A stretch of DNA of 64,000 nt from Oxalobacteraceae bacterium OTU3CAMAD1 (GTDB lineage: Bacteria; Pseudomonadota; Gammaproteobacteria; Burkholderiales; Burkholderiaceae_D): contig CP099650.1 in the NCBI GenBank assembly GCA_024123915.1, positions 4,526,001 to 4,590,000 of the forward strand, in the 5' to 3' direction. A model generated the notes under the pieces. It was not told the DNA's origin and did not search any database. It saw only the letters and a program-made list of their open reading frames with translations. Each line of letters opens with the position of its first letter. Position 1 is the first letter of the stretch. The translations under genes were made by a program, and so were the position numbers. Shown here in pieces: positions 35,201 to 49,707 of the stretch.

Positions 35201-35332
35201 CAGCTCGATGTCGGGAAAGTTCTGCACCTTCATCGCGCGGAAACCCATCAGGCCCCCGAGCGTCAACAGGATGAACAGCAGGATGGCCGGGGTCGGATTG
35301 CGGATCGACCAGGAGGATATATTGAAATGCAT
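32207..35332 (-). CDS. RND-family efflux transporter permease (AcrB/MdtB type)
   Basis: 1041 residues with the RND plan: TM1 (PAILLFILLTLGGLMGF), a first periplasmic loop (PGASPAQLETDVARKIEDALATVQGVKHI), and TM2-6 including the proton-relay helix (SLVIGVLVDDAIVEIENIERHL, adjacent Asp pair). The second loop and TM7-12 follow (MIGLIMLMGIATKNSILLIDYI). Last gene of an outer membrane factor-adaptor-RND operon read leftward; it starts 13 bp after the adaptor stop. The substrate is not deducible. Its product ends 12 bp from the convergent tannase gene. An operator-like site precedes the operon at 38075. Confidence 0.95.
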   Translation of the reverse strand: MHFNISSWSIRNPTPAILLFILLTLGGLMGFRAMKVQNFPDIELPTVTVSAELPGASPAQLETDVARKIEDALATVQGVKHIRSTLTDGNANIAIEFHLEKPAQQAVEDVRDAVSRVRADLPADLRDPVIRKVELAGAPILTYTVASSHMDAEALSWFVDNEVGKTLLAVPGVGAVTRVGGVDREVRVALDPARLLALNTTAVDLSRQLRQIQRESPGGRVNLGGAEQSVRTIATVQSAAEVALLDVTMGDGRRVRLDRVATVTDTFAEPRSAALLNGAPVVGFEITRSRGAGEIDVAEGVQRALERLKAKHTDIVVTEAFNFVDPVRENYDGSMRLLYEGAALAVLVVFLFLRDWRATLIAAVALPLSAIPTFALMHWMGFTVNTVSLLSLSLVIGVLVDDAIVEIENIERHLLMGKTPFQAAMEAADEIGLAVVATTFTLIAVFLPTAFMGGTVGKFFVQFGWTAAIAVFFSLVVARMLTPMMSAYLLRAPEAKPRHAPRWLEAYLSCARWCLRHRALTVAAAAAFFAGGLMLAATLPGTFIPPDDDWQTQVTVTLAPGAKLGDTLALAERARGIVMGNPHVKLVYSAIGGGSAGADPAGSSGGAVADVRTAVLTLNLTHRDHRPGLTKQGIESQLRAALAALPGARVKVGMGESENYVLVLAGEDGAALARHALVVENELRGIAGIGAVTSTAILLRPELIVRPDFDRAADLGVTSAAIADTLRVATTGDYDQELAKLNLSERQVPVVVRLADGARDDFETLKRLPVPGARGPVSLENVATLTIGSGPSEIARYDRLRNVNFEIELNGQPLGDIEAAVLALPSLQKMPPGVVQATIGDAEAMGELAAGFGVAMLTGVLCIYMVLVLLLKDFMQPVTILAALVLSVPGAFVALFVTGTALSMPSMIGLIMLMGIATKNSILLIDYIILARRDHGLARWDAIIDACGKRVRPIVMTTIAMGAGMLPIALGWGADPSFRAPMAIVVIGGLITSTVLSLLVIPVVFTYVDDAAQWLAARVRGAERDTRIAPAEAEARLRPRP

Positions 35333-35345
35333 CGTGTTCTTTCGT

Positions 35346-36503
35346 TTAATTGGGGCCGGCGTTGGCGGCGACGGCGGCCGGTACCGGCGTCTTCATCGAT
35401 GCCGGCGCGGCGGCCACCGTGACCAGGTCGCCGTGCCCGAGGAAAGCGCCGCCGGCCGCCACCACCCGCGCCGGCGCGGCGATGCCATCGACGATCTCGA
35501 TCCTGTCGCCCGCGCGCCGCCCCACCGTCACTTTGGTCTGCGCCACGCGCGAATCGGCGCCCACCCTCAGTACATAGCTGAAGCCGTCGCGCATCAGCAC
35601 CGCGCTTTGCGGCAAGGTCACCATGCGGACGCTGCCGGTCTCGAACTCCCCGCGCGCGAACATGCCGGCGCGCGCCGGACTGTCCAGCGGCAGGTCCACG
35701 TACACCAGACCGTTGCGCGAGAGCGTATCGACCGCCGGCGCGACCATCCGCAGACGGCCCTTGACCGGCTTGCCGCCGGCCGGCGTCACCAGCGCGGCCT
35801 GGCCGGGCTTGAGCTGGACCAGGTCCGAAGCCGCGACCTCGGCGCGCCATTCGAGCCGGCCGCGCAGGATCAGCCGGAACAGCTCCTGCCCGGCCGGCGG
35901 CACCGCGCCCACCGTCGCGCTGCGCGCCGAGATCACGCCATCGTCCGGTGCCAGCACGCGGGTCTGCGCCAGGCGCAATTGCTGGGTGTTTTCGGCGGCC
36001 CGCAACGCGTCCAGCCGCGCCTGCGCGGTGCGCTCGGCGGTGAGGTATTGCTGGATTTGCTGGGCCGACATGGCGCCGGTGGTCTGCAGTTGACGGGCGC
36101 GCTGCGCGTTGGCCCCGGCCTCGGCCAGCGCGGCCTCCGCCTCGGCGGCGGCCGCGCGGCTTTGCGCCAGCTCGGCGCCCACGGTGGCGGCGGCGAAGGT
36201 GGCCAGTAGCTGGCCGCGCCGGACCACGTCGCCAACATTGACCTTGACCTCGGCCAGGCGCAGCCCGTTGGCCTCGGTGCCGATGCTGGCTTCCTGCCAC
36301 GCCGTGATATTGCCGTTGGCGGCCAGCCGGATCGGCAGCACCGCCGGCTGCGGCGTCGCGACTTCGACCGTCAGCGCGCTCCTGGGAGCGGCCGCCGGCG
36401 GCTTGGCCGGCTCCGGCATGGCCACCGCGATGGCGGCGACGGCAAGCGCGGCGGCCAGCGCCGCTGCCAAATAGAAGAGATGGTGGCGTATATTTTTCAT
36501 CAT
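35346..36503 (-). CDS. RND efflux periplasmic adaptor (membrane fusion protein)
   Basis: 385 residues. The N-terminal signal/anchor helix (FYLAAALAAALAVAAIAVAM) leads to barrel-sandwich hybrid halves (ITAWQEASIGTEANGLRLAEVKVNVGDVVRRGQLL and TRVLAPDDGVISARSATVGAVPPAGQELFRLI) flanking an Ala/Glu-rich alpha-hairpin. Beta-barrel and membrane-proximal domains follow. It bridges the RND pump and the outer-membrane channel. ATGATG at its start overlaps the stop of the outer-membrane factor gene, so either Met may be used; translation is coupled. Confidence 0.93.
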   Translation of the reverse strand: MMKNIRHHLFYLAAALAAALAVAAIAVAMPEPAKPPAAAPRSALTVEVATPQPAVLPIRLAANGNITAWQEASIGTEANGLRLAEVKVNVGDVVRRGQLLATFAAATVGAELAQSRAAAAEAEAALAEAGANAQRARQLQTTGAMSAQQIQQYLTAERTAQARLDALRAAENTQQLRLAQTRVLAPDDGVISARSATVGAVPPAGQELFRLILRGRLEWRAEVAASDLVQLKPGQAALVTPAGGKPVKGRLRMVAPAVDTLSRNGLVYVDLPLDSPARAGMFARGEFETGSVRMVTLPQSAVLMRDGFSYVLRVGADSRVAQTKVTVGRRAGDRIEIVDGIAAPARVVAAGGAFLGHGDLVTVAAAPASMKTPVPAAVAANAGPN

Positions 36504-38029
36504 TGGTTTCCTTGTTCTTGGCGGGCCTGCGCGGTGTGGCTGCCGATGTTGGCGATGGATGATTCGGGCGACTCGGCGGTAGTTGCGGTCGATGCCTGCG
36601 CGCCGGCTTCGGACCAGCCGCCGCCGAGCTCGCGGTACAGGGCGATCCAGGCGGCCACCCGTTCGCGGCGCAGGTCGATCACCGCGACCTGCGCCGCGAG
36701 CATGCTGCGGCGGGCGTCCTCCAGCTCGAACAAACTGGCGGTGCCGGCCTGGTAGCTCGCCTCCGTCGCACGATAGGAGCGCTCGAATCCGGCGGCGGCG
36801 GCATCGGTGTCGGCGCCGCGCGCGGCCGTGCTCCGCAGCGTGACCAGCGCCGTTTCCACGTCGCGCACCGCTTCGCGCAGGCGCGCCGCGTAGACCGTGG
36901 TGGCGGTCTCGTAGCGCACGCGCGCCGCCTGCGCGTTGGCGCGCAGCGTGCCGCCGTCGAACAGCGGCAAGGTCACGGCCACCGGTCCCACGCTCCAGAC
37001 GCTGCCGCTACTGCTGATGCCGCCGCCGCTCACGCGGTTGGCGCCGATGCTGCCGGCCAGGGTGACGCGCGGCCAGCGTTGCGCCAGTGCCTGGTCTGCC
37101 CGAGCGCTGGCGGCCACGACGTCGCGCGCGGCGGCGTAAATATCGGGCCGTTGCGCCAGCACGGCGGCCGGCACGGCGGCCACGGCCAGTTCGGCCGGTT
37201 GCGGCAAGCGGGCGGCCCAGGCGGCAAGCTCGCCGCGCAGCGCCGTCTCGTCCAGCGCGGTGAGCGCGACCAGCGCCTTGACCGAGAGGTCGCATTGCGC
37301 GCGCTGCTGGATCAGGGTGGCGTTCGCCTGCGCAGCGCTGGCGCGCACCAGATCGGCCGTGGCCGGCGCGCGGAAGCCGGCGTCCGCCGCCAGATCGGTC
37401 AATTCGGAGGTCCGGGTCCGCGAGCGGGCATCGAGCTCCGTCTGCACCAGCTGCGCTTCGCAGACGCGCAGGCTGACGTAACTGGTGGCGATTTCGGCGG
37501 CTAGCGACACCCGCGCCACATGCCAGCCGGCCTGGCTGGATTCCAGCGCGGCCTGGGCGGCGCCAGCGCCGGCGCGGTAGGCGCCGAACAGGTCCAGCTC
37601 CCAGGCGGCCTGCAAGCCGGCCGATGAAGCCTTGCCGATGGGCGCGGCGATCTCCGAGCGGGCGCGGCTGGCGCTGGCATTGGCGCTCAGGTTGGGCAGC
37701 AAGGCGGCGCCGCTGGACACCCTGGCCGCGCGGGCGTCGGCGATGCGGGCCAAGGCTTCCGCCAGGGTCGGGCTGGCTTTCTGCCCGGCCGCGATCAGGC
37801 GCGGCACTAACGGGTCGTCGAATTGCCCCCACCAAAGGCCCAGGTCGGCAAGCTGGCCGCCGTGCGGCAGCGGCGCGTGCCATTGGGCGGCCACCGGCGC
37901 CGCCGGACCGCCCGGTGTCAGCTCGGGAACGACGGTCGCGCAGCCGGCCAACCACGCGACGGCGGCCAGCTGCGGCGCGTGCGACAGCGGCCGGCGGAAA
38001 AATAGAATCAAGTTGGCGGGTGAACGCAT
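36500..38029 (-). CDS. RND efflux outer-membrane lipoprotein (NodT/OprM family)
   Basis: 509 residues. The N-terminus contains a lipobox (AWLAGC), then the NodT family opening (WHAPLPHGGQLADLGLWWGQFDDPLVPRLIAAG) and the two duplicated outer-membrane-efflux domains (AAWELDLFG in the first, QRPDIYAAARDVVAASARADQALAQRWPRVTL in the second). It forms the trimeric exit duct. First gene of the pump operon; an operator-like site and a -10-like hexamer lie 46 and ~30 bp upstream (see 38075-38090). Confidence 0.93.
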   Translation of the reverse strand: MRSPANLILFFRRPLSHAPQLAAVAWLAGCATVVPELTPGGPAAPVAAQWHAPLPHGGQLADLGLWWGQFDDPLVPRLIAAGQKASPTLAEALARIADARAARVSSGAALLPNLSANASASRARSEIAAPIGKASSAGLQAAWELDLFGAYRAGAGAAQAALESSQAGWHVARVSLAAEIATSYVSLRVCEAQLVQTELDARSRTRTSELTDLAADAGFRAPATADLVRASAAQANATLIQQRAQCDLSVKALVALTALDETALRGELAAWAARLPQPAELAVAAVPAAVLAQRPDIYAAARDVVAASARADQALAQRWPRVTLAGSIGANRVSGGGISSSGSVWSVGPVAVTLPLFDGGTLRANAQAARVRYETATTVYAARLREAVRDVETALVTLRSTAARGADTDAAAAGFERSYRATEASYQAGTASLFELEDARRSMLAAQVAVIDLRRERVAAWIALYRELGGGWSEAGAQASTATTAESPESSIANIGSHTAQARQEQGNQ

Positions 38030-38074
38030 GCGATGCCCTCGGAATTAACAAAGCGTCACTATCGGGCACCCCGT

Positions 38075-38090
38075 CTTTCCGGATACTTAC
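38075..38090 (-). promoter_or_regulatory. Operator-like direct repeat upstream of RND operon
   Basis: Minus-strand GTAAG-TATCCG-GAAAG, a one-mismatch variant of the motif found at 38122 and 49692. Eleven bases downstream is GATAGT, a plausible -10. Direct repeats with an 11-bp period are typical of OmpR/PhoB-type response regulators. The match is by eye and the regulator is inferred from neighbourhood. Confidence 0.5.
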
Positions 38091-38121
38091 CGGAAAGGAC
38101 GAGTTTTGATGTTTTTTTCGG

Positions 38122-38137
38122 GTAAGTATTCAGTAAG
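38122..38137 (+). promoter_or_regulatory. Operator-like direct repeat upstream of mipA-response regulator-kinase operon
   Basis: GTAAG-TATTCA-GTAAG, a direct repeat with 11-bp period, 50 bp before the mipA start. A weak -10-like GACCAT follows after 11 bases, the same spacing as at the two sister sites. Together with the divergent site at 38075 it makes this intergenic region a back-to-back regulated promoter pair, presumably autoregulated by the response regulator of the same operon. Confidence 0.6.
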
Positions 38138-38187
38138 ACGACTTGGCCGACCATGTCGTTTCACACTCAACATTCGGAGAAACCACC

Positions 38188-39000
38188 ATGCAGTTTCCGC
38201 GCATCTTTACCTCGGCCACCCCTTCGGCAATCAACCACGTGACGGTCGCCTCGGTCCTCGCACTCGGGCTGGGCGCCGCGTCCGTTGCCAACGCCGCCCC
38301 GGGCGACGGGGCGTCCTCGTGGGGCCTGGGCGTGGCAGCGTTCACCGAGCAGCAGCCGTACGCCGGCATCGACCGGGAAAACCGCGCATTGCCGCTAATC
38401 TCCTACGACAACCAATATGTGCGCGTGTTCGGCCCCGTCGTGGAATTCAAGGCCTACAGCGTCGATCTCGGCGGCGGCCAGCGCCTCGACCTGCGCGTGG
38501 TCGGCAAGTACGACTTCAGCGGCTATGAAGCCAAGGACGCGCCGATCCTGAATGGCATGCGCGAGCGCAAAGGCGGTTTCTGGGCGGGCGGCAAGGTTAA
38601 ATGGGCAACCGGCGTGGTCGATGTCAGCGCCGAATTGCTGGCCGACGCCTCGGGCAACAGCAAGGGCCGCCGCTTCAACCTGGGCCTGGAAAAAAACTGG
38701 CGCATCGGCCAGCATGTTATATTGACGCCCCGCGCAGGCGCCAGCTGGGTCGACAAGAAATACGTCGATTACTACTACGGCGTCGCCCCCGACGAGGCGC
38801 GCGCCGGCCGTGCCGCTTACGAGGGCAAATCCGGCGTCAACGCCGAATTGGGCTTGCGCGGCACCTACGTCGTCGATGCGCACCACTCCCTGTTTCTTGA
38901 TCTGGGGGTGAGCAAGCTTTCCAAAAAGATCAAGGATAGCCCTCTGGTCGACCGCGCGACCGAGAGTCGTGTCGGCCTGGGATACCTGTACCGCTTCTGA
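38188..39000 (+). CDS. MipA/OmpV family outer-membrane protein
   Basis: 270 residues from ATG 38188, supported by a GGAGA SD and a signal peptide ending VANA|AP (ASVLALGLGAASVANA). The mature protein shows the MipA/OmpV beta-barrel pattern: SWGLGVAAFTEQQPYAGIDREN, YDNQYVRVFGPVVEFKAYSVDLGGGQRLDLRVVGKYDFSGYEAKD, alternating aromatic strands and a terminal GLGYLYRF. Family members are scaffolds for peptidoglycan synthesis or osmotic/antibiotic-stress porins. Its TGA overlaps the ATG of the response-regulator gene, so the three genes form one coupled operon. Confidence 0.93.
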   Translation: MQFPRIFTSATPSAINHVTVASVLALGLGAASVANAAPGDGASSWGLGVAAFTEQQPYAGIDRENRALPLISYDNQYVRVFGPVVEFKAYSVDLGGGQRLDLRVVGKYDFSGYEAKDAPILNGMRERKGGFWAGGKVKWATGVVDVSAELLADASGNSKGRRFNLGLEKNWRIGQHVILTPRAGASWVDKKYVDYYYGVAPDEARAGRAAYEGKSGVNAELGLRGTYVVDAHHSLFLDLGVSKLSKKIKDSPLVDRATESRVGLGYLYRF

Positions 39001-39686
39001 TGAATCGCATTCTACTAATCGAAGACCACGACCGCCTTGCCCAGCTGATGTGCAAGGCGCTGGCGGCCGCCGGCATCGCGGTCGACGTCATCGACCGCAT
39101 CGACAGCGCGTGGTCCGCCATCCAGCAACTGCCGTACCAGGCGATCATCCTCGACCGGGGTTTGCCCGACGGTGACGGGCTGTCCCTGTTGCAGCGCGTG
39201 CGCGCCGCCGGGCTGCACGTGCCCTGCCTGGTGCTGACGGCGCGCGACGCGCTGCACGACCGCGTCGCGGGGCTCGAGGCCGGGGCCGACGACTACCTGC
39301 CCAAGCCCTTCGCCATGGACGAGATGGTCGCGCGTGCGCGAGCCTTGCTGCGCCGCCCCGTCGATTTCCGCCCGCTCGACCCCAGCCACGACGACCTGAC
39401 GCTGCGCCCCGGCGAGGGTCTGGTCTGCTGCGCGGAGGAAAGCGTCACCCTCGCGCCGGCGGAGATGCAGATCATGCTGATGCTGGTGCACCGCCATGCC
39501 GAGGTGGTGCGCCGCAGCGCGCTGGAGGCCGCCGCCTGGGGGCTGAGCGAGGCCGTCACGCCCAACGCGCTGGACGTGGCGCTGCACCGGATACGCCGCA
39601 AACTGCTGGCCATCGGCTCGCGCCAACGGATCGTCAATGTGAGGGGACTGGGTTATGCGCTTCGCGAAGCCGACGTGGCTGAATAG
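39000..39686 (+). CDS. OmpR-family response regulator
   Basis: 228 residues. Receiver domain with acidic pocket (IEDHD), phosphoacceptor Asp52 (IILDRGLPDGDG), Thr/Ser (LTAR) and Lys (DYLPKPF), followed by a winged-helix OmpR/PhoB DNA-binding domain (VTLAPAEMQIMLMLVHRHAEVV ... NALDVALHRIRRKL ... VNVRGLGYAL). All phosphorylation residues are intact. The family is QseB/PmrA/BasR-like in the general sense. The ATG overlaps the mipA stop and the kinase ATG overlaps its 3' end by 32 nt. Predicted to bind the GTAAG-N6-GTAAG sites noted in this window. Confidence 0.95.
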   Translation: MNRILLIEDHDRLAQLMCKALAAAGIAVDVIDRIDSAWSAIQQLPYQAIILDRGLPDGDGLSLLQRVRAAGLHVPCLVLTARDALHDRVAGLEAGADDYLPKPFAMDEMVARARALLRRPVDFRPLDPSHDDLTLRPGEGLVCCAEESVTLAPAEMQIMLMLVHRHAEVVRRSALEAAAWGLSEAVTPNALDVALHRIRRKLLAIGSRQRIVNVRGLGYALREADVAE

Positions 39687-41040
39687 CCTGGGCGTCAAAG
39701 TCTTATTGGCCTACGTGGCCGGCATGGTGCTCAGCATCACCCTGCTGCTGGCGGCCGTTTTTTACCTCATCTCGACGAAAAGCGAGATTTTGCCCAGTAT
39801 GGACGTGGCGGAACGCGCGGAGGAAATGGCCGAGGCGCTGCTCTTCGACAGCGCCGGACGGCCGGTCGGCTTCATGGAAAGCGAAGACAGTCATCCCTGG
39901 ACGTACGACAGTCTCCGGCGTGAGATCGCGTACCGCGTGCTGGACGCGGCCGGCAACGTCGCCCTCGCGTCCGCCACCGGCCCCGGGACGGCATGGCCGT
40001 CGACACCGGCGACGCGCCGGTTGACATCCGGTCCCTTCACCTTCGATTTCGCCGGCGTGCCGATGTACGCCGGCACCGCCGCCGTCGAGCACGACGGCAA
40101 GCGCTGGTATGTGCAGTTCGCCGCGAGCAAGCGGATCGTCGAGCTGTTCCAAACCGAGTTCGCGCTGCCGTTCATGGGCGCCGGCGTCGTGTTGTTCAGT
40201 GTGGTCATGCTGTTCGTCTTCGGCGCCTGCGCGCTCATCACGCTGCGCTACACACTCAAGCCGCTGCGCGAGGTGTCGGAATCGGCTGCCGCGATTTCCC
40301 CGCGCGCGCTGCACGCGCGGCTGCGGGTCAACGCGGTGCCGGCCGAGATCGCGCCGCTGGTCGACAGTTTCAACCGTGTGCTGGAGCGCCTGGAACAGGG
40401 TTATCGCGTCCAGCAGGGTTTTCTGGCGACGGCCGCGCACGAGTTGAAGACACCGCTCGCCCTGATCCGCGCCCAAGTCGAGCTGACGGGCGAAGGTGAC
40501 GAGCGCGATTCGCTGCTCAGCGACATCCAGCACATGACGCGCCAGGTACAGCAGTTGCTGCTGCTGGCCGAAGCGAGCGAGGAGCAAAATTACATTTTCG
40601 CCATGGTCGATCCGCGCGACGTCGGCGCCGAGGCGGTCGGCTATCTGCGCCGCATGGCCGATGCGGCGAATGTACGCCTGACCTTGCGCGACGACGGCCC
40701 GGCGGCGCCATGGCAGGCGGACCCGGCGACGCTGTTCACCTTGCTGAAAAACCTGCTGGAAAACGCCATCCAGCATGCCCCCGAAGGCACCGAGGTGTGC
40801 GTGACGGTTGGCGCCGAGGCGCTGACGGTACGCGATAGCGGCCCCGGGGTGACACCGGAACAGATGGCGCGGATGTTCGAGCGCTTCTGGCGTGGCGCGC
40901 ACCGCCGCGACCATGGCGCCGGACTGGGCCTGTCGATCTGCCAGGAAATCGCGCGGGCGCACGGCTGGACACTGGCGGCGCAGCGGATGGAACCTGGTCT
41001 GCTGTTCCGGCTGACCACCCGCCCGACGCCGGACGCGTAG
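39655..41040 (+). CDS. Two-component sensor histidine kinase
   Basis: 461 residues with TM1 (VLLAYVAGMVLSITLLLAAVFYLI, ~15-38), a periplasmic sensor of ~130 residues rich in acidic residues, and TM2 (~175-200). HAMP follows (LKPLREVSESAAAISPRAL), then HisKA with the phosphorylatable His in ATAAHELKTPLALI, N box (NLLENAIQHAP), G1 (VRDSGPGV) and G2 (HGAGLGLSIC). A complete class I kinase, presumably partner of the adjacent regulator. The acidic periplasmic loop and the linkage to lipid A modification and an efflux pump suggest envelope-stress or cationic-peptide sensing (inference). Confidence 0.95.
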   Translation: MRFAKPTWLNSLGVKVLLAYVAGMVLSITLLLAAVFYLISTKSEILPSMDVAERAEEMAEALLFDSAGRPVGFMESEDSHPWTYDSLRREIAYRVLDAAGNVALASATGPGTAWPSTPATRRLTSGPFTFDFAGVPMYAGTAAVEHDGKRWYVQFAASKRIVELFQTEFALPFMGAGVVLFSVVMLFVFGACALITLRYTLKPLREVSESAAAISPRALHARLRVNAVPAEIAPLVDSFNRVLERLEQGYRVQQGFLATAAHELKTPLALIRAQVELTGEGDERDSLLSDIQHMTRQVQQLLLLAEASEEQNYIFAMVDPRDVGAEAVGYLRRMADAANVRLTLRDDGPAAPWQADPATLFTLLKNLLENAIQHAPEGTEVCVTVGAEALTVRDSGPGVTPEQMARMFERFWRGAHRRDHGAGLGLSICQEIARAHGWTLAAQRMEPGLLFRLTTRPTPDA

Positions 41041-41112
41041 AGCCGGTGCGGCGGATGCCACATTGGCGTTCCCGCGCGCAGGTCATCGCGGCGCGGTCTA
41101 TCCGGCTTTCCA

Positions 41113-42555
41113 TTAGGCGCGCACTAAAGAAACGGAATCTTGCGAAACCGCCCGCCGGGCCGGGGCGCGCGGCGCGCTGGACGCTGCGTCCCTGGCGAGC
41201 CGGGAGCCGCGCCCGATGCCGTGGTACTCAAATCCGTACGCGTCCATCGCCTCCGGCTCGAACAGATTGCGCCCATCGAAGATGACCGGCTGTTTCAGCG
41301 CCGCCTTGATCTTGCCGAAATCGGGGCTGCGAAACGCCTTCCACTCGGTGACGATCGCCAGCGCGTCGGCGCCGGCCAGGGCGTCGAGCGGCGCGGCGGC
41401 GAAGCGCACCCGCGCCAGTTCATCGGCGCGCAGATCCAGCGCCAACATCCGCGCGGCCTCGGCCATCGCGACCGGGTCGTACACGGCCACGGTCGCGCCC
41501 GCGCGCAGCAACTGGCGCAGCAGCACGCGCGCCGGCGCCTCCCGCATGTCGTCGGTGTTCGGTTTGAACGCCAGTCCCCACACAGCGAAATGCATGCCGT
41601 CCAGATCGTCGCCGTAGCGCCCGAGGATCTTGCGGCCCAGCAGCTGCTGCTGGTGCTCATTGACCGCCTCCACCGCGCGCAGGATCAACAGCTCCTGGCC
41701 GAAGCGCCCGGCGGTGCGCGCGAGCGCCCGCACGTCCTTGGGAAAGCACGAGCCGCCGTAGCCGGCGCCGGCGTACAGGAAGCCGTGGCCGATACGCGGA
41801 TCGGAGCCGATGCCGCGCCGCACCGCCTCGATATCGACGCCGACGCAATCGGCCAGGTTGGCCAGTTCGTTCATCAACGAGATGCGCGTGGCCAGCATGG
41901 CGTTGGCGGCATACTTGGTGAATTCCGCCGAGCGCACGTCCATCCAGTGGGTGCGTTCGTGATTGCGGTTGAAAGGCTTGTAGAGCGCGCGCAGCAGGTC
42001 ACGCGCGCGCTCGCCGTCGGGCGTGCCGTCGCAGCCGATGACGATGCGGTCGGGCCGCATGAAATCCTCGACCGCCGCGCCCTCCTTGAGGAACTCGGGG
42101 TTGGAGACGACCGAGAAAGCGGCATCGGACGCGCGCCTGCCCAGCTCCTCGCGCAGCACGGCGGCCACGCGCTCGCCGGTGCCGACCGGCACGGTCGACT
42201 TGTCGACCACCACCTTGAAGCCGTGCATATGGCGGCCAATCGCGCGCGCGGCGGCGAGCACGTGCCGCAGGTCGGCAGCGCCGTCCTCGTCCCCCGGCGT
42301 GCCGACCGCGATGAACTGCAAGTCGCCGTGCTCCACGGCGGCGGCGACGTCGGTGCAAAAGCGCAGCCGTCCGGCGTCGCGGTTGCGTTCGACGATCTCC
42401 TCCAGCCCCGGTTCGTGGATCGGCATGCCGCCGCTGTTGAGCAGCGCGATCTTGCCCTCGTCCAGGTCGAGGCAGACGACATCATTGCCCAGTTCGGCCA
42501 GGCAGGCGCCCGTCACCAGGCCGACGTAGCCCGTTCCGATGATGGTGATTTTCAT
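41113..42555 (-). CDS. ugd: UDP-glucose 6-dehydrogenase
   Basis: 480 residues. N-terminal Rossmann fold ([21 protein letters not shown]), the conserved AVGTP and DKSTVPVGT segments, [24 protein letters not shown], the catalytic cysteine in [10 protein letters not shown], and the C-terminal UDP-binding domain ([20 protein letters not shown]). It oxidises UDP-glucose to UDP-glucuronate, the precursor for the ArnA dehydrogenase reaction. Last gene of the arn operon. The ~35 C-terminal residues (Ala/Arg/Ser rich) go beyond the usual family end. A 15-codon mini-ORF overlaps its ATG. Confidence 0.96.
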
Positions 42556-42599
42556 ACTGGCGCCCCGCCTGGTTGGAACGGATCGAGAAATTGCGACAT
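42552..42599 (-). CDS. Putative 15-aa coupling/leader peptide overlapping the ugd start
   Basis: ATG 42599 is preceded at 7 nt by GAGGAG (42607-42612), the best ribosome-binding site in this gap. It encodes [15 protein letters not shown] and its TGA overlaps the ugd ATG (ATGA arrangement). Such short coupled ORFs can re-initiate ribosomes on the next gene or act as leader peptides. No family is known to me, and it may be only a translation-initiation relic. Confidence 0.4.
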
Positions 42600-42642
42600 T
42601 GGGATACTCCTCAAAATAAGGGGAAGGAAAGGAAAGGCCACG

Positions 42643-43605
42643 CTACGGCGCCCCGCCCTGCATGATCACGCGCCCGGAACGCCCGGGCAGCTCGCCCCAG
42701 CCCAACGGCGACGTCGGCAGCGGCGCGTGCCGGACTTTCTCGTAGTAGTCGGCCATCGCGCCGAACCGGTAGCCCTGCGCGCGCCAGCCGAGCAGCAACT
42801 GCTCGAACACCGGCGCCAGCTTTTGTCCCTCCAGTTCGGCGTGCAGCGTGTAGACATGGTCGCGCGGGGCGCCTGCGGTCAGCGACAACAGGTGCGCCGC
42901 GACGTTGTCCGCCGTGATCGTCCTGCCGTCGATCGCGCGTCCGAGCAGTTCGTCGAGCGTGGGCAGCGTCGTGGGCAACTGGACGCAGTCGATCAAGCGG
43001 TCGCCGGCCACCACCCGGTGCGGTCCGCTGGCCGGGTCGCGCAGCGCGCCCCGCTCGTCCAGCGCCGCGCGCCCGTCCGAGGCGTAGCGGTAGCCGGCCG
43101 CGTCGTGTTCGGCGAAGGCGGCGGCGTTCATCTGCCAGCCGGCCGCGCCATGCGTGCGCGTGGCCACGCCGAACACGTCGACATGGCGGCGCGCGGCCTT
43201 GCGCATCATCTCGCGCGTCCAGTCGGCGCCGCGCGCGGCCACGTTGTCCTGCCACCGCACGTGGTCCCAGGTGTGGATGCCGCATTCGAAACCGGCGTCG
43301 CGCACCGCGCGCAGCTGCGACGCGCAGCGCCGGCCGATGTCGGGACCGGGCAGCAAGGTGCCGTACATCAGCGTCTTCAGGCCGTAGTGCTCCACCACCG
43401 ACGTGCGCGCGACCTTGTTGAAAAAACCGGGTCGCAGCGCGCGCCGCAGCGCCCAGCCGGTATGGTCCGGGCCGAGCGAAAACAGGAACGTGGCGTTGGC
43501 CCCGTGCGCGCGCAGCATGCGCACCAGGTTAGCCACGCCCAGACGGGTGCCGCGATAAGTGTCGACGTCGATCTTGAGCGTCAACAGTGGTGGAGTCGCC
43601 GCCAT
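42643..43605 (-). CDS. arnD: 4-deoxy-4-formamido-L-arabinose-phosphoundecaprenol deformylase ArnD
   Basis: 320 residues of polysaccharide-deacetylase fold: metal-site Asp in LKIDVDTYRGT, NATFLFSLGPDH, metal-site histidines in IHTWDHVRWQ, and C-terminal HVYTLHAELEGQKLAPVFEQLL. These match ArnD rather than generic chitin/xylan deacetylases. It removes the formyl group from undecaprenyl-phosphate-Ara4FN at the inner membrane. The stop-start junction with the preceding dehydrogenase gene shares a single base (43605), so translation is coupled. Final ~25 residues form a family-variable tail. Confidence 0.93.
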   Translation of the reverse strand: MAATPPLLTLKIDVDTYRGTRLGVANLVRMLRAHGANATFLFSLGPDHTGWALRRALRPGFFNKVARTSVVEHYGLKTLMYGTLLPGPDIGRRCASQLRAVRDAGFECGIHTWDHVRWQDNVAARGADWTREMMRKAARRHVDVFGVATRTHGAAGWQMNAAAFAEHDAAGYRYASDGRAALDERGALRDPASGPHRVVAGDRLIDCVQLPTTLPTLDELLGRAIDGRTITADNVAAHLLSLTAGAPRDHVYTLHAELEGQKLAPVFEQLLLGWRAQGYRFGAMADYYEKVRHAPLPTSPLGWGELPGRSGRVIMQGGAP

Positions 43606-44657
43606 CAGTCGATCAACGCCTGCGCCTGCGCGACCTGGCCGCGATAGGCGTCGAAGATGCGCCGCAGCGCGTCGGCCATGCCGGTGACGGGCTTCCAGCC
43701 CAGGTCCGTGCTGGTGTTGGTGATCTTCGGCACGCGGTTCTGCACGTCCTGGTAACCCTCGCCGTAGTAGGCGCCGGACGTGGTCTCGACGATCTTCACC
43801 CGGCGCGCCGCTTCCGCGTACTCCGGGTAGTCGGCGGCCAGCGCCATCATCATGTGGGCCAGCTCCCGGATCGAATAATTGTTGACCGGATTGCCGATGT
43901 TGTAGATTTTTCCACTGGCGACGCCGTCGACGTTGGCGATGATGCGCACCAGCGCGTCGATGCCGTCGTCGATGTAGGTGAAGGCGCGTTTCTGCGCGCC
44001 GCCGTCGACCAGCGAGATGGCCTCGCCGCGCACGATGTGGCCGAAGAACTGCGTCACCACGCGCGACGAGCCCTCCTTGGCGGTGTGGATCGAGTCGAGC
44101 CCCGCGCCGATCCAGTTAAAGGGGCGGAACAAGGTGAAGTTCAGTCCCTCCATGCCGTAGCCCCAGATCACCCGGTCCATCAGCTGCTTGGCGTTGGAAT
44201 AGATCCAGCGCGGCTTGTTGATTGGGCCGCACACCAGTTCGGAGTTTTCGGGATCGAACTCCTCGTCGTGGCACATGCCGTACACCTCCGACGTCGACGG
44301 GAACACCAGGTGCTTGCCGTATTTGGCGGCCGAGCGCACGATCGGCAGGTTGGCCTCGAAATCGAGTTCGAACACGCGCAAGGGTTCCTTGACGTAGGTC
44401 GACGGCGTGGCGATGGCCACCAGCGGCACGATCACATCGCATTTCTTGACGTGGTATTCGATCCACTCCTTGTTGATCGTGATGTCGCCCTCGTAGAAAT
44501 GCATGCGCGACTTGTAGGCCGGGTTCTCCAGAAGGCCGGTGATGCGGTCGGTGTGCATATCCATGCCAAACACCTCCCAATCGGTGGTTTCGAGGATGCG
44601 CTTGGACAGGTGATGGCCGATAAAGCCGTTGACGCCAAGGATAAGGACTTTTTTCAT
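43605..44657 (-). CDS. arnA: UDP-glucuronic acid decarboxylase (ArnA dehydrogenase half, stand-alone)
   Basis: 350 residues of extended-SDR fold. NAD-binding GVNGFIGHHL, FPSTSEVYGM, the catalytic YSNAKQ (YxxxK), LFRPFNWIGAGLDS and a KRAFTYIDDGIDALVRI segment align with the C-terminal half of E. coli ArnA. It oxidises and decarboxylates UDP-glucuronate to UDP-Ara4O. In enterobacteria this is fused to the formyltransferase; here it is its own gene, overlapped by 4 nt by the formyltransferase gene upstream. Confidence 0.93.
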   Translation of the reverse strand: MKKVLILGVNGFIGHHLSKRILETTDWEVFGMDMHTDRITGLLENPAYKSRMHFYEGDITINKEWIEYHVKKCDVIVPLVAIATPSTYVKEPLRVFELDFEANLPIVRSAAKYGKHLVFPSTSEVYGMCHDEEFDPENSELVCGPINKPRWIYSNAKQLMDRVIWGYGMEGLNFTLFRPFNWIGAGLDSIHTAKEGSSRVVTQFFGHIVRGEAISLVDGGAQKRAFTYIDDGIDALVRIIANVDGVASGKIYNIGNPVNNYSIRELAHMMMALAADYPEYAEAARRVKIVETTSGAYYGEGYQDVQNRVPKITNTSTDLGWKPVTGMADALRRIFDAYRGQVAQAQALID

Positions 44658-45607
44658 GGTTTTACTCGGGTGATGTCGATCTGCGCCGCCGAACTGGCCA
44701 GCATGGTTTGTAACTGTTGTGGCGATACTTCCACCGCGCCGTCCAGCAACGAGGAGATGGCCAGCATGCGGCCGTCACCGCACACGCCGACGATCCCGCC
44801 GTCGAGCACTGCCAAGCCGCAAGCCATGCCTGTTGCCACGCTGCCCGACAGCAGGCGCGCCCGCGCCAGTGTCAGGCACACGCCGCCCACCTCCGTGTGG
44901 GCGCCGGGATAAGGCGGGGCCACCGCGCGGTGCAGGTTGTAGACGGTTTGCGCGTCGGCGCGCCAGTCGATGCGGCCATCGGAGGGCGTGCGCCCGCCGA
45001 AGTAACTGCCCTGCCGCAGGTCGTTGTCGCGGCGCGGCGGATCGCCCGCCAGCAGCGCCGGCAGCACGCCCCACAAGGTCTGCTCGGCCGCCACGGTGAC
45101 CTTGCCGAACACCTCGAAGGCCGTGTCGTCTGGCAGGATGGGCACCGCCGTCTGCGCCAAGATGGCGCCGGCGTCGGGCTTGACGGTCATCTCGTGCAGG
45201 GTCGCGCCGGTGCGGTCGGCGCCATGCAGCACGGCCCAGTTGACCGGCGCGCGGCCGCGAAACTTCGGCAGCAGGGAGCCATGCATGTTGTAGGCCGGCG
45301 CCACCGCCAGCACGGCGACCGGCAGCATGTGGCGGTAATAGAAACTGAACAGGAAGTCCGGTCGCGCCGCGCGCACGGCCGCCAGCAGCGCCGGATCGGC
45401 GGGATCGGGGTGTACTGCGGTGGCGATGCCGTGTTCGCGGCAAACCGCTCGCACCGAGCCGTACCAGATGTTCTCGGCCGGATCGTCATCGTGCGTGATC
45501 ACTAGCGCCACGTCCACGCCGCCGGCCAGCAGCACCCGCAGGCACCGCACGCCGACATCGTGGTAGGCAAACACCACGGCCCGCAGCGCCGCGCCTTGCG
45601 CCGTCAC
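44654..45607 (-). CDS. UDP-4-amino-4-deoxy-L-arabinose formyltransferase (ArnA N-terminal half, stand-alone)
   Basis: 317 residues from GTG 45607, chosen because it overlaps the arnC stop by 4 nt and opens with the expected strand AVVFAYHDVGVRCLRVLL. Motifs are those of the formyltransferase half of ArnA: FSFYYRHMLP, the catalytic His in NMHGSLLPKFRGRAPVNWAV, Asp in KPDAGAILAQ, and the FMT C-terminal domain (RTPSDGRIDWRADAQTVYNLHRAVAPPYPGA). It transfers formyl from N10-formyl-THF to UDP-L-Ara4N. ArnA splitting into two adjacent genes is its notable feature. Confidence 0.92.
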   Translation of the reverse strand: MTAQGAALRAVVFAYHDVGVRCLRVLLAGGVDVALVITHDDDPAENIWYGSVRAVCREHGIATAVHPDPADPALLAAVRAARPDFLFSFYYRHMLPVAVLAVAPAYNMHGSLLPKFRGRAPVNWAVLHGADRTGATLHEMTVKPDAGAILAQTAVPILPDDTAFEVFGKVTVAAEQTLWGVLPALLAGDPPRRDNDLRQGSYFGGRTPSDGRIDWRADAQTVYNLHRAVAPPYPGAHTEVGGVCLTLARARLLSGSVATGMACGLAVLDGGIVGVCGDGRMLAISSLLDGAVEVSPQQLQTMLASSAAQIDITRVKP

Positions 45608-46617
45608 CGCCCCACCCCGCGCTGTTCCAGCGGCAGAATGGCCGCCGCATTGGCGGCGTCGGCCACCTGCCGCCGCGCCGCCGGCGCCGGCTCCTCGAGG
45701 ATGGTTTGAACCACATAGCGCGGCCGCGCGCGCACCTGCTGGTAGATGCGGCCGATGTACTCGCCCAACAAGCCGATGCCGAACAGGATCACGCCCATCA
45801 GGAAGAACAGCAGCGCGAACAAGGTGAACGCGCCCTCGGCCTCGGCGCCGAGCAGCAGCCGGCGCGTTAGCAGCACCAGCACCAACAGGCCGGAGGCTCC
45901 CGACAGCGCCATGCCCAGCATCGAGAACAGTTGCAGCGGAATGAGCGAGAAGCCGGTCACCAGGTCGAAGTTGAGCCGTATCAGGCTGTAGAACGAATAC
46001 TTCGACGCGCCAGCCACGCGCTCCTCGTGCTCGACCACGACCTCGGCCGGATTGCGCGCGAAGGTGTAGGCCAGCGCGGGCACGAAGGTGTTGACCTCCG
46101 CGCATTGATTGACCAGGTCGATGACATTGCGGCCGTAGGCACGCAGCATGTTGCCCTGGTCGGTGATGCGGATGTTGGTGATGCGTTCGCGCATCCGGTT
46201 CATCGCCTTCGACGCCAGCGTGCGCCAGGCCGAATCCTGGCGCACGCGCCGGATCGAGCCGACGTAGTCGTGGCCTTCGCGGATCTTGTCGACCAGCTTG
46301 CCGATTTCCTCGGGCGGGTTTTGCAGGTCGGCGTCGAGGGTGACCATGATCTCGCCGCGCGCCGACTGGAAGCCGGCCAGGATCGCCATGTGCTGGCCGT
46401 AGTTGCCGTTGAACAGCACCACCCGGGTGACGTCGGGGCGCCGCCGGAACTGCTCGGCCAACAGCGCCACCGAGGCGTCGCGGCTGCCGTCGTTGACGAA
46501 CACGATTTCATAGCTGCTGCCGAGCGCGTCGAGCGCCGGGTACAGGCGCGCGAACAGGCCGGGCAGCCCCGCCTCCTCGTTGTAGACCGGAATGACGATG
46601 GACAATTCTGGCGTCAT
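45604..46617 (-). CDS. arnC: Undecaprenyl-phosphate Ara4FN transferase ArnC
   Basis: 337 residues from ATG 46617. GT-A glycosyltransferase family 2 domain: LSIVIPVYNEEAGLPGLFARL, VNDGSRDAS, TLDADLQNPPEEI, GSIRRVRQDSAWR, followed by two C-terminal transmembrane hairpins (LFSMLGMALSGASGLLVLVLL and LFALLFFLMGVILFGIGLLGEYIGRIY) as in ArnC/GtrB. It places Ara4FN on undecaprenyl phosphate. Overlaps arnT by 4 nt. The Ala-rich C-terminal tail is poorly conserved. Confidence 0.94.
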   Translation of the reverse strand: MTPELSIVIPVYNEEAGLPGLFARLYPALDALGSSYEIVFVNDGSRDASVALLAEQFRRRPDVTRVVLFNGNYGQHMAILAGFQSARGEIMVTLDADLQNPPEEIGKLVDKIREGHDYVGSIRRVRQDSAWRTLASKAMNRMRERITNIRITDQGNMLRAYGRNVIDLVNQCAEVNTFVPALAYTFARNPAEVVVEHEERVAGASKYSFYSLIRLNFDLVTGFSLIPLQLFSMLGMALSGASGLLVLVLLTRRLLLGAEAEGAFTLFALLFFLMGVILFGIGLLGEYIGRIYQQVRARPRYVVQTILEEPAPAARRQVADAANAAAILPLEQRGVGR

Positions 46618-48413
46618 GGCAATGCTTTCGTTAATTGATTGGAGATCACGAGCCGGCGCCCGTCGCGTGCCACCAGCCGCATCGGCACGCCGCGCTGGCG
46701 CAGCCGGTCGTACAGTGCCTGGCTGGCGATGGCCACTGAGGGCCGGCCGGCAGCGCTGTCCCGCCGCCATTGGGCGACGAATTCGTCCAGCCCGGACAGC
46801 GCCAGATGCGGTTCCTGTTGCAGCCCGAAGCCGAATTCGTCCGCGTACTCGACCAGGATCGCCGGCCGGCCCAGGTAGAAGGTCAGCGACTGCTCGTAGC
46901 GGCCGACCGCGTACAGCTTGGCGGTCGGCGTCAGTTCGGCGCGGATCGCCGGCAGCAGCGCGGTGCCCGCGCGGTCCTTGCCGTACACCTCGAAACCTGC
47001 GACGATCAGGTGGGTGGCGAGAAAGCCGGCTACCGCCATCGTCAGGACGGTCGAATCGCGCCGCTCTCGGGCCGCGTGGAACCATGCGAGGCAGCCGCCG
47101 ACCAACATAATGCATCCGGCGAACATCAGCCACGGCTGGTAGCTGCGCAGGTTGTGCGGCGCAGAGCCGGCCGCGCCCACGCCCATGCCCATCGTCAGCG
47201 CCACCGGCACCGCGACCACCAGCGCCGCGCCCACCGCCGCCAGCAGCGCGGCGGCGACCATGTGCGGGCGGCGGCCGGCGGCGTCCAGGCACAGCGCCGT
47301 GAGCAACGCCAGCGCCGGGAACACCGGCACGATGTAGCCGGGCAGCTTCGAGCTCGACATGCTGAAAAACACGAAAATGAAGGCGAACCAGATCAACAAC
47401 AGCAATCGCGGCTGGAACCGGCCCGGCGCGCGCCTGGCGCCCGCCGCCAATGCGTGCGGCAGCCAGCCCAACCAAGGCAACATGCCAGGCAGCAGCAGCA
47501 TGATGAAGGCGTACCAGGGCCCCTCGCGCTTGTGGCCAGGGCTCAGGAAGCGGTCGAAATGCTCGTGAATGAAGAAGAAATACGGCTGTTCGGGGTTGCG
47601 CTGGGCGACCAGGATGAACCAGGGCGCGGCGATGGCGAAAAGCAGCAGCAATCCCTTGCCCATGTGCAGACGGGTCCAGACGCGCCAATCGCGCGCGGCG
47701 GCGCCGTAGAGCACCAACATGGCGCCCGGCAGCACCACGCCGACCAGGCCCTTGGCCAGCACCGCAAGTGCCATCGCCGCCCATGCGACCAGCATCCAGG
47801 CGCGCCGCTGGCCGGCGGTGGCGTCATCGCGCTGGGCGATCAGCACGGCGGCCAGGCAGGTGGCCATCATGCCCGACAGGCTCATGTCGAGCGAATTGAT
47901 CTGGCCCGATGCCAGCCAGAACAGGGTCGACGCCAGCACCAGGCCGGCATACATCCCGACGCGGGGGGAGAACACCACGCGGCCGGCCCAGGCGGTCATG
48001 ACCACGCCGACGATGCCGCAGACGCCGGTCCACAGGCGCGCCTGCCATTCACCCAGGCCGAACAGGGTGAAGGTCAGCGCGTTCATCCACGCTTGCAACG
48101 GCGGCTTTTCGAAATATTTAATGCCGTTCAGGCGCGTGGTGATCCAATCGCCGCTGGTAAACATCTCCCTGCCGATCTCGGCGTAGCGGCCCTCGTCGGG
48201 CGGTACCAGGGTGCGCACGCCGAGTGCGTACAGCGTGATCAGGACGAAGCCGCCGAACAGCATCCACAGCAGCGCCGTCGACAACGGCGGCGTGGCGCCG
48301 GCGCGCGTGGACGGCGGCGTCGGGCGCGCCGCGAGGGCGTCGTCGAGCAGCGCGTCGCCGGCGCCGCCGGTGAATGGCTGGCGTGCCCTGTTATGCATGG
48401 CATCGAGGTTCAT
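46614..48413 (-). CDS. arnT: 4-amino-4-deoxy-L-arabinose lipid A transferase ArnT
   Basis: 599 residues of PMT/ArnT-type polytopic glycosyltransferase. After a ~45-residue N-terminal extension come TM1 (LLWMLFGGFVLITLYAL), the catalytic-loop motif PPDEGRYAEIGREMFTSGDW, and YFEKPPLQAWMNALTF. About twelve TM helices follow, with a periplasmic C-terminal domain (YGKDRAGTALLPAI ... AVGRYEQSLTFYLGRP). It transfers Ara4N from undecaprenyl phosphate to lipid A phosphates in the periplasm, lowering binding of polymyxins and cationic peptides. Placed second in this operon, unlike the enterobacterial order. Its ATG overlaps the arnB stop. Confidence 0.94.
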   Translation of the reverse strand: MNLDAMHNRARQPFTGGAGDALLDDALAARPTPPSTRAGATPPLSTALLWMLFGGFVLITLYALGVRTLVPPDEGRYAEIGREMFTSGDWITTRLNGIKYFEKPPLQAWMNALTFTLFGLGEWQARLWTGVCGIVGVVMTAWAGRVVFSPRVGMYAGLVLASTLFWLASGQINSLDMSLSGMMATCLAAVLIAQRDDATAGQRRAWMLVAWAAMALAVLAKGLVGVVLPGAMLVLYGAAARDWRVWTRLHMGKGLLLLFAIAAPWFILVAQRNPEQPYFFFIHEHFDRFLSPGHKREGPWYAFIMLLLPGMLPWLGWLPHALAAGARRAPGRFQPRLLLLIWFAFIFVFFSMSSSKLPGYIVPVFPALALLTALCLDAAGRRPHMVAAALLAAVGAALVVAVPVALTMGMGVGAAGSAPHNLRSYQPWLMFAGCIMLVGGCLAWFHAARERRDSTVLTMAVAGFLATHLIVAGFEVYGKDRAGTALLPAIRAELTPTAKLYAVGRYEQSLTFYLGRPAILVEYADEFGFGLQQEPHLALSGLDEFVAQWRRDSAAGRPSVAIASQALYDRLRQRGVPMRLVARDGRRLVISNQLTKALP

Positions 48414-49558
48414 TGGGGCACCTGCGGGATCAGGATCGATTCGACGGCGGCCACGACGCGCTCGACGTCGTCGAAAGTCATCGCGTGGAACATCGGCAAG
48501 GTCACCGTCAGGCGGCCGACGCGCTCGGCGACCGGGAACATGCCCTCCGCGTAGCCGCGCGCGCGGTACAGGCTGAACAAATGAATCGCCGCGTAATGGA
48601 AGCCGGTGCCGATCCCCCGACGCGCCATCGCCTCCATGAAGTCGGCGCGCGTGGACGCCCCCCGGTCGGGAAGGATGATCTGGAACAGATGCCAGTTGCT
48701 GTGGTCGAAATCGGCCAGCGGCAGCCGGGCGCCGCTGGCGGCCTCGAAGCCATCGCCGAAGCGGGCGAAATAGTGGCGCGCCAGCGCGTGCCGGTGCGCG
48801 GTGACGGCCTCGATGTTGGCGAACTGGCCCAGGCCGATCGCCGCCATGATGTCGCTCATGTTGTGCTTGCCACCGGGGAGATCGACATCGATGCCGTCGA
48901 TCCCGCTTCGGGTGACGCCCTGCAGGCGGTGCCTGGCGGCCAGCGCCGCTTCCTCCGCGTCGTTCAGCACGAGGCAGCCGCCCTCGCCCGTGGTCAGGTT
49001 CTTATTCGCTTGAAAGCTGAACGACACCAGATCGCCGAAGGCGCCGACGGGCCGGCCCCGCCAGCGCGATCCGAACGCCTGCGCGGCGTCCTCCACCACG
49101 CGTAGCCGGTGGCGCGCGGCGATCGCGTACAGGCGCTCCATGTCCACCGGCAGGCCGGATAAATGCACCGGGATCAGCGCGCGCGTGCGCGGCGTGATGG
49201 CGGCTTCAAGTCGATCAAGATCGATGTTGCGGGTGGCCGGATCGATGTCGGCGAACACCGGCGTCGCGCCGACGGCGAGGATGACGTTGGCGGTGGCCGG
49301 CCACGAGATAGGGGTGGTGATCACCTCGTCGCCGTGGCCGACGCCGGCCACGCGCAGGGCGATCTCCATGGTGCAGGTTCCGGAGTTGAAGGTCAATACG
49401 GGCCGCCCGCCAAAATAAGCGGACAGGCGCTCCTCGAACTCGCTTACTTTGGGGCCGCTGGTGATCCAGCCGGAGCGCAGCACGTCGCCGACGGCGGCGA
49501 TGGTGGCCTCGTCGATGGTGGGCCGGGAGAACGGCAGGAAAGGCAGCTCGCGCGTCAT
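48410..49558 (-). CDS. arnB: UDP-Ara4O aminotransferase ArnB
   Basis: 382 residues of DegT/DnrJ/EryC1 PLP aminotransferase fold: LPFSRPTIDEATIAAVGDVLRSGWITSGPKV, NSGTCTMEIALR, PISWPATANVIL, DAAQAFGSRWRGRPVGAFGDLVSFSF with the PLP lysine in QANKNLTTGEGG, and a C-terminal GTGFHYAAIHLF segment. It converts UDP-Ara4O to UDP-Ara4N using glutamate. First gene of the operon; its ATG overlaps the stop of a 28-codon ORF, and an operator-like site lies ~135 bp upstream. Confidence 0.94.
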   Translation of the reverse strand: MTRELPFLPFSRPTIDEATIAAVGDVLRSGWITSGPKVSEFEERLSAYFGGRPVLTFNSGTCTMEIALRVAGVGHGDEVITTPISWPATANVILAVGATPVFADIDPATRNIDLDRLEAAITPRTRALIPVHLSGLPVDMERLYAIAARHRLRVVEDAAQAFGSRWRGRPVGAFGDLVSFSFQANKNLTTGEGGCLVLNDAEEAALAARHRLQGVTRSGIDGIDVDLPGGKHNMSDIMAAIGLGQFANIEAVTAHRHALARHYFARFGDGFEAASGARLPLADFDHSNWHLFQIILPDRGASTRADFMEAMARRGIGTGFHYAAIHLFSLYRARGYAEGMFPVAERVGRLTVTLPMFHAMTFDDVERVVAAVESILIPQVPQ

Positions 49559-49641
49559 GGGCGATAGCCACCAACGCGGGGCGCGCGTTCCGGTGTGACG
49601 GTTAGTTGTTTGGTCGAGCTGAAAATACGCGTGAACCGCAT
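49555..49641 (-). CDS. Putative 28-aa leader peptide of the arn operon
   Basis: ATG 49641 has a GGAGAAAC ribosome-binding site (49646-49653). The frame encodes 28 residues beginning MRFTRIFSSTKQLTVTPERA, with six Arg/Lys, and its TGA overlaps the arnB ATG (ATGA). Without it arnB would lack an evident SD. It may be a regulatory leader, a coupling ORF or a real basic micropeptide. I recognise no homologue. Confidence 0.5.
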   Translation of the reverse strand: MRFTRIFSSTKQLTVTPERAPRVGGYRP

Positions 49642-49691
49642 GATTGTTTCTCCGAGTGCCGAGGCAGGGAGATCATCATCAGGCTAGTTCA

Positions 49692-49707
49692 CTTACTGAA
49701 CACTTAC
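49692..49707 (-). promoter_or_regulatory. Operator-like direct repeat upstream of the arn operon
   Basis: Minus-strand GTAAG-TGTTCA-GTAAG differs at one spacer base from the site before mipA (38122). GATGAT, a plausible -10, follows after 11 bases. This points to control of lipid A modification by the same OmpR-type regulator encoded ~10 kb away. It also lies 35 bp beyond the end of the molybdenum hydroxylase gene, whose stop is at 49742. Confidence 0.6.

Follow-up and report, generated by a model that had tools for sequence, protein, structure and literature searches.

A 16-bp direct repeat (GTAAG-N6-G[TA]AAG) is found in front of three operons of Oxalobacteraceae bacterium OTU3CAMAD1, which encode a MipA/OmpV-family outer-membrane protein together with a response regulator (RR) and a histidine kinase (HK), a resistance-nodulation-division (RND) efflux pump, and the arn functions of lipid A modification. 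All three lie in the window, the 64,000-nucleotide stretch analysed here (positions 4526001-4590000 of contig CP099650.1, the single contig of 7,481,272 bp, or 7.48 Mb, that was scanned as the genome); Duganella was taken as the genus of the host, the nearest named relatives being Duganella sp. CF517 and Duganella sp. 1411. Together the three operons are most likely a single, small circuit for envelope defence that moves horizontally. The best explanation as a whole, to which we assign a probability of about 0.85, is that the kinase and regulator encoded with mipA would activate their own operon, the RND pump and arn via the repeat, the half-sites of which follow one another with a period of 11 bp.

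An earlier note on this DNA had placed the three sites, with coordinates and strands, before three different operons, and -10-like hexamers (GACCAT, GATAGT and GATGAT) exactly 11 bases past the repeat; all of this held when checked on the sequence (Table 1). The hexamers share three (GACCAT) or four (GATAGT, GATGAT) of six bases with TATAAT and thus rank as weak -10 elements, and it is their fixed position, not their sequence strength, that makes the putative -10 assignment convincing. Weak hexamers are expected of activated promoters, which speaks against the view that the sites act in repression, or that the RND site is the operator of a separate palindrome-binding repressor. That view, which we regard as very unlikely, draws on the location of the repeat where a -35 element would be, and on a perfect 8-bp inverted repeat of which the RND site is part in both the window and G042; conservation does not extend to this palindrome, which is broken in G018 and the g67 genomes, where the direct repeat is kept, and which was dropped as the true operator.

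Within the window the exact repeat (GTAAGN6GWAAG) occurs at these three sites only, and with one mismatch at eight places, against 1.89 ± 1.39 in shuffled sequences. Genome-wide there are eight exact repeats, three of them inside this 11.6-kb stretch, and the simulated probability that any three of eight sites are so clustered is about 4e-4. With the hexamer included (GTAAG-N6-GWAAG-N11-GANNRT, the strict pattern), exactly three sites are left in the genome, all at the three named promoters; when one mismatch is allowed in this pattern, five genome sites stand against three for the control. The genome-wide scan with a -10 at +11 that had been proposed thus returned three of three strict sites here, a density beyond chance. 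None of the other five exact repeats has GANNRT at +11; as far as a reading of open reading frames (ORFs) goes, they lie at a junction of overlapping ORFs, inside an ORF, between two genes of the other strand and, in two cases, before an ORF that presumably encodes a winged-helix protein or an acetyl-CoA synthetase, respectively. MipA-family genes number five in the genome, with the strict operator at one only. At positions 4375885-4375922 of the contig (L036:1886-1923) four GTAAG-like half-sites form an array of 11-bp period between two ORFs, which we take to be thiolase-like and MFS-like; this array is possibly another OmpR-type target.

Conservation of the operator was followed through 392 genomes of the family, in which relatives of the kinase (E <= 1e-70) were found in 34. 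The exact operator with GANNAT is present in 36 of the 392, the reversed control pattern in three genomes, and the operator is distributed very unevenly, with 30/34 kinase-bearing genomes and 6/358 of the remainder (Fisher 1e-34). An exact match is missing from four kinase genomes (G350, G396, G400, G408), yet the repeat is there in each of them; a single base of a half-site differs in two, and the hexamer differs in the other two. In a test by locus, the 300 bp before mipA were searched for the half-sites only, so that the -10 was no part of the search. From 48 loci given, seven were dropped (six in which mipA or the regulator could not be recognised and one with differing strands); at least nine of the ten half-site bases were found in 40 of the 41 left, with GANN[AG]T at +11 in 38 of these 40, while shuffled upstreams of the same loci reached nine of ten in 10/2050 cases. 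Of 12 further kinase genomes G416 is cut by a contig end; the other 11 all have the site, nine of them with the hexamer. Including the window, the tested loci cover 32 of the 34 family kinase genomes, with the site in 32/32, those outside the test being G333 and G416 (mipA cut by the contig end). L255 (Eleftheria), dropped from the locus test, has a site 66 bp before the annotated MipA gene. At the level of the genus, a stricter pattern is confined to four of 74 genomes, the same four that carry a kinase at least 90% identical.

Several points weigh against the proposed circuit. Thirteen of the 41 loci (f219) had been fetched by the operator pattern and were excluded from the count of loci found by protein similarity; without them the first set gives the site in 27/28 and the hexamer in 25/27, and the protein-similarity loci combined give the repeat before mipA in 38/39 (at least nine of ten bases) and GANN[AG]T at +11 in 34/38. 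The single locus without the site is L132, the MipA of which is 31% identical, and the hexamer is missing at L254, L257, L270 and L271. Co-occurrence of operator and genes partly reflects that both share one locus, and G121, a genus relative without the kinase, has one match to a looser pattern. No 10/10 site was found at eight arn loci (L177-L184) of seven other genomes, arnE and arnF were not identified, and, among the targets in other hosts described below, the PAP2, GT25 and GtrA-PMT_2 links are single loci each, with the PAP2 site at only 9/10. Genome-wide, the one-mismatch bare repeat is not enriched, with 156 places against 320 for a reversed control pattern, so that only the strict form is informative. 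This, and the five of eight exact repeats lying elsewhere in the genome, speak for a chance similarity without function, a reading that we find barely credible in view of the strict pattern at three of three sites in the locus, the 38/39 loci and the Fisher value above. The earlier note had made its proposal depend on conservation in related genomes, and with 38/39 loci and 30/34 kinase genomes it stands.

The regulator encoded in the mipA operon is of OmpR type, as had been supposed, since it has receiver (PF00072) and winged-helix (PF00486) domains; these domains, together with tandem direct repeats, mark an OmpR/PhoB-family regulon. Its best NCBIfam model is PmrA, with 177.2 bits against a cut-off of 330, which leaves it below the PmrA equivalog threshold, and its best PDB matches are BasR/PmrA (8jo2, 4s04). 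The recognition helix TPNALDVALHR[LIM]RRK is shared by 33 of 34 regulators of operator loci (22 and 12, compared in two sets), the exception being G400 with Met in place of the first Leu, and differs in every one of the five regulators that were compared from loci lacking the canonical site (L130, L131, L132, L070, L071). In L131 the change is a single Lys, and a related 9/10 repeat is present there without mipA; this locus (G001) has two GAAAGTATTCCGTAAG sites in inverted orientation before the related regulator gene. Elsewhere (L133:4418-5948, Duganella sp. CF517) the regulator gene is present as two full-length tandem copies between mipA and kinase.

According to the accessible part of a study on PmrA, this protein binds two head-to-tail half-sites with an 11-bp period, and its Asn196 is the counterpart of PhoB Arg201, a guanine contact (PMC3973317). 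Compared with six PmrA residues of DNA contact or specificity, as given there, the regulator keeps Asn188 and His195 and shows Thr187 to Pro, His193 to Ala, Asn196 to Arg and Glu199 to Arg; Arg at the position of Asn196 may explain a half-site CTTAC versus CTTAA in PmrA. The PmrA half-sites CTTAAT and CCTAAG (PMC3973317, same portion) resemble the reverse-strand CTTAC, and similar tandem sites are common to OmpR-family regulators, so the protein that binds the repeat could be a different, resident regulator (PmrA, QseB or PhoB-like), with the mipA-encoded one controlling something else. This seems unlikely to us, as the operator tracks the mipA-RR-HK genes through the 392 genomes, another order and plasmids, where resident regulators should differ, and as within the genus the stricter pattern is confined to the four genomes with the genes (the looser one adding the match in G121).

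Support for the mipA-encoded regulator also comes from outside the family. In 369 genomes of the class, the regulator was found (E <= 1e-55) in only two, that of the window and G821, which belongs to a different order and has a regulator 75% identical. The strict pattern is present in 20 of 151 genomes of the family of G821 (37 sites; reversed control in seven genomes). The 17 loci that were read come from 15 of the 20; in 14 of the loci mipA, regulator and kinase occur together with the site, and eight of these 14 also have an RND operon in divergent orientation. The site stands without the module in L238 and L245, and the module without the site in L206. In a regulator tree (41 rows, 228 columns) the Duganella, g67 and f219 sequences cluster together in a starred group, and a further f219 sequence is placed with g71 and g75; this pattern favours horizontal transfer. 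Plasmid-borne relatives were also found in Variovorax (two), Pantoea (two), Burkholderia (two), Eleftheria, Achromobacter and Paraburkholderia. In the six of these nine records that were examined the repeat precedes MipA throughout, and the regulator directly follows mipA in the window as well as at four of the five plasmid loci with annotation; in the Paraburkholderia plasmid locus a second regulator precedes the kinase, and in Eleftheria another gene lies between mipA and regulator.

The operator faces further genes in these hosts. A YejM/PbgA-like sulfatase is faced in L238, L240, L241 and L243, a call that rests on a scan of the L240 protein (DUF3413 and sulfatase; LapC/YejM/PbgA at 261 bits, cut-off 825) and on the printed sequences of the others. 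In L243 a site also faces a channel gene followed by a GtrA-GT2-PMT_2 set, in Variovorax paradoxus a family-25 lipopolysaccharide (LPS) glycosyltransferase (GT25), and in V. boronicumulans, as a 9/10 site, a PAP2 phosphatase. Modification of LPS recurs among the targets without being a rule. It is reasonably probable that mipA, regulator, kinase and invariant operator, often with the divergent RND operon, make up a mobile, self-contained cassette that crosses orders and plasmids and into which hosts plug local LPS-modifying operons, Duganella by duplication of the promoter and the start of mipA. Adjoining the module in L237, L239 and L246 (f219), GTAAG-N6-GAAAG with GATAGT lies about 210 bp before two ORFs, which we take to be RidA-like and lipoprotein hydrolase-like; the RidA-like gene is one example of the faced genes that have no LPS link.

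When the second base of the second half-site was left free, 20 divergent pairs of sites were found among 45 loci, 16 of them between mipA and an RND operon (or, in L114, an RND remnant). In all 16, from two families and a Variovorax plasmid, the second half-site reads GAAAG on the RND side and GTAAG on the mipA side; the RND site is evidently, by its sequence, a distinct type with a GAAAG second half, kept as such across orders. The gaps between the 20 paired sites measure 29-31, 39-41 or 71 bp, and their phase concentration at 10.4 bp is 0.866 for nine lineage-distinct gaps, a value reached by less than 0.1% of random sets in a test devised after the gaps had been seen. Such helically phased distances hint that regulator dimers on both promoters may touch. 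The idea that a variable gap marks independent divergent sites was dropped, as the gaps fall into these three classes. In L114 (G407) no RND operon was found; the operator, the -10 and the start of the adaptor signal peptide remain.

The arn site, present at the equivalent place in the four Duganella genomes with the module, appears to be no independently arisen site; on sequence comparison, the arn promoter derives from a copy, since diverged, of the mipA promoter with the first mipA codons. Both operators are identical in 15 of 16 positions, both lie 50 nt from a start codon, and a CGGAGAAA stretch is common to both promoters. The likeness runs into coding sequence, with MQFPRIFTSATPSAI in mipA and MRFTRIFSSTKQLTV in a short leader ORF before arnB; in G042 this leader starts MRFPRIFSS. 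Over the 78 bases after the hexamer 47 are identical, whereas the next best of 274,154 positions searched in the genome reaches 40, against a background mean of 19.9 (standard deviation 4.0). The ungapped coding match is 27/45 bases, compared with 12/45 in G018 and 7/45 in G015, in both of which mipA begins one base earlier. The stop codon of the leader and the start codon of arnB share the sequence ATGA in G018 and G042 as in the window; in G015 the leader is frameshifted, and a conserved functional peptide is not favoured for that reason. The third codon is Phe in mipA and leader alike in the window (38188, 49641), and Leu in mipA and leader alike in G018 and G015 (L133, L134), a pairing that hints that the two promoters may have undergone gene conversion with each other.

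The genome has another arn operon, seemingly complete, at about 4,765-4,773 kb (4765000-4773300, L175), some 190 kb from the window copy; it lacks the operator, as does a second arn copy in G015 (L176). The two arn operons of the genome have diverged unevenly, with an arnA half 99% and arnT 70% identical. At the eight arn loci of other genomes four 9/10 matches (L177, L179, two in L181) all lack the hexamer; with no 10/10 site there, arn control looks like a local addition, and arn seems to have joined the putative circuit by promoter duplication in the Duganella lineage.

From the sites, their spacing, conservation, co-occurrence, promoter homology and spread we infer the binding protein, activation over repression, the inducer and the order of induction. 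The kinase would sense damage to the outer membrane, the probable cause of which is cationic peptides such as polymyxins, with MipA probably helping from the outer membrane, and would phosphorylate the PmrA-like regulator. A regulator dimer would bind the direct repeat, one subunit per half-site, and the bound repeat would stand in for a -35 element, so that the weak -10 elements 11 bases downstream could be activated, following the class II geometry of PhoB-type promoters. In this way the regulator would switch on the divergent RND pump, the arn genes of lipid A modification and, in a positive feedback loop, its own operon; the GAAAG half-site of the RND promoter probably sets a different threshold. 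Recruitment of arn would have taken place in the Duganella lineage, when the mipA promoter was copied before one of the genome's arn operons, in line with horizontal regulatory transfer as a concept. The link to polymyxin is suggested by arn, by MipA of Pseudomonas aeruginosa, as treated in the available part of that source (PMC10936184), and by LPS-modifying genes behind the same operator elsewhere.

Enterobacterial PmrA/PmrB (BasRS) controls arn. The system described here resembles it in a regulator of the OmpR family, for which PmrA is the best match among models as well as solved structures, in tandem half-sites of 11-bp period and in arn as a presumed target, and differs in the score (177 vs 330 bits), in four of six compared residues, in the half-site (CTTAC vs CTTAA) and in outputs that include mipA and the RND pump, so far as the consulted part of the PmrA study allows the comparison (PMC3973317). 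Closer in outputs is P. aeruginosa ParRS, described in the portion available as a polymyxin-responsive two-component system with mipBA, mexXY-oprA and arn in its regulon (PMC10936184). On that portion both have a MipA-family protein, an RND pump and arn as outputs and a mip gene beside the regulator genes; in P. aeruginosa a mipB-mipA operon lies beside parRS, whereas here the RR-HK operon begins with mipA, from which the RND operon diverges. No mipB lies between mipA and regulator in the window locus, the one place where it was looked for. The circuit may thus work like ParRS-MipA-MexXY-arn, a likeness of gene set and outputs, not of ParR sequence or operator; co-regulation here is suggested by the one operator that mip gene, RND pump and arn share at three operons. 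BesRS of Burkholderia thailandensis is, in the accessible text, an envelope-disturbance two-component system with polymyxin B as strongest inducer and a MipA/OmpV gene in its regulon (PMC9426598); it is described there as close to CpxAR with an unrelated box, TGCGGCCACAAATTTGCACGCA, and the different box rules it out as the same system. In a search of titles and abstracts, with subscription papers mostly outside it, no description of a mipA-linked two-component system in Duganella or of this operator was found. Beyond the earlier note, the apparent derivation of the arn promoter from that of mipA, the second arn operon without a site, the two site types and the module in another order and on plasmids are new. 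A guessed motif thereby becomes a testable regulon of a soil bacterium, with a definite site, a promoter geometry and a presumed cognate regulator, and the arn operon offers a clear sequence record of being brought under a stress regulator through a promoter copied with part of its gene. This suggests that MipA-coupled polymyxin sensing of the P. aeruginosa type has a wider, mobile relative, the outputs of which vary by host.

The genes of the locus are compiled in Table 1. As their genes overlap, mipA, regulator and kinase look like one operon; the RND operon diverges from it. The arn operon spans 49558 to 41113 with arnB, arnT, an arnC-like glycosyltransferase, a split arnA, arnD and ugd.

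Table 1. Operators, putative -10 hexamers and genes of the three operons (window coordinates).
Feature	Position	Strand	Remarks
mipA-RR-HK operon operator GTAAGTATTCAGTAAG	38122..38137	+	50 nt before mipA ATG at 38188
RND efflux operon operator GTAAGTATCCGGAAAG	38075..38090	-	45 nt before ATG of efflux outer-membrane gene (38029)
arn operon operator GTAAGTGTTCAGTAAG	49692..49707	-	50 nt before 28-codon leader ORF
-10-like hexamer GACCAT, mipA promoter	38149..38154	+	11 bases after operator
-10-like hexamer GATAGT, RND promoter	38058..38063	-	identical in 7 compared g1 and g67 sites
-10-like hexamer GATGAT, arn promoter	49675..49680	-	11 bases after repeat
28-codon leader ORF before arnB (MRFTRIFSSTKQL...), apparent relic of mipA 5' end	49555..49641	-	TGA overlaps arnB ATG at 49558
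mipA (MipA/OmpV outer-membrane protein)	38188..39000	+	Pfam PF06629, 142.4 bits
Response regulator, OmpR/PmrA type, presumed activator	39000..39686	+	PF00072 and PF00486
Sensor histidine kinase	39655..41040	+	HAMP, HisKA, HATPase_c
Outer-membrane channel of RND efflux system (NodT type)	36500..38029	-	TIGR01845 above cut-off
Periplasmic adaptor of RND efflux system	35346..36503	-	TIGR01730 above cut-off
RND permease	32207..35332	-	NF033617, 673 bits, under cut-off 1250
arnB aminotransferase	48410..49558	-	best NCBIfam ArnB PRK11658, 310 bits, under cut-off 631
arnT aminoarabinose transferase	46614..48413	-	Arnt_C PF18583 and PMT_2
arnC-like glycosyltransferase	45604..46605 (start approximate)	-	Glycos_transf_2
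ArnA formyltransferase half	44654..46105 (true start probably near 45600)	-	Formyl_trans_N/C
ArnA decarboxylase half / UDP-4-keto-pentose synthase	43605..44657	-	NF008872 above cut-off
arnD deformylase	42643..43605	-	NF011923, 194 bits, under cut-off 382
ugd, UDP-glucose dehydrogenase	41113..42555	-	TIGR03026 above cut-off

Genes of the tannase/feruloyl esterase family flank the locus on both sides, at positions 30383-32191 and 54408-55988 of the window.

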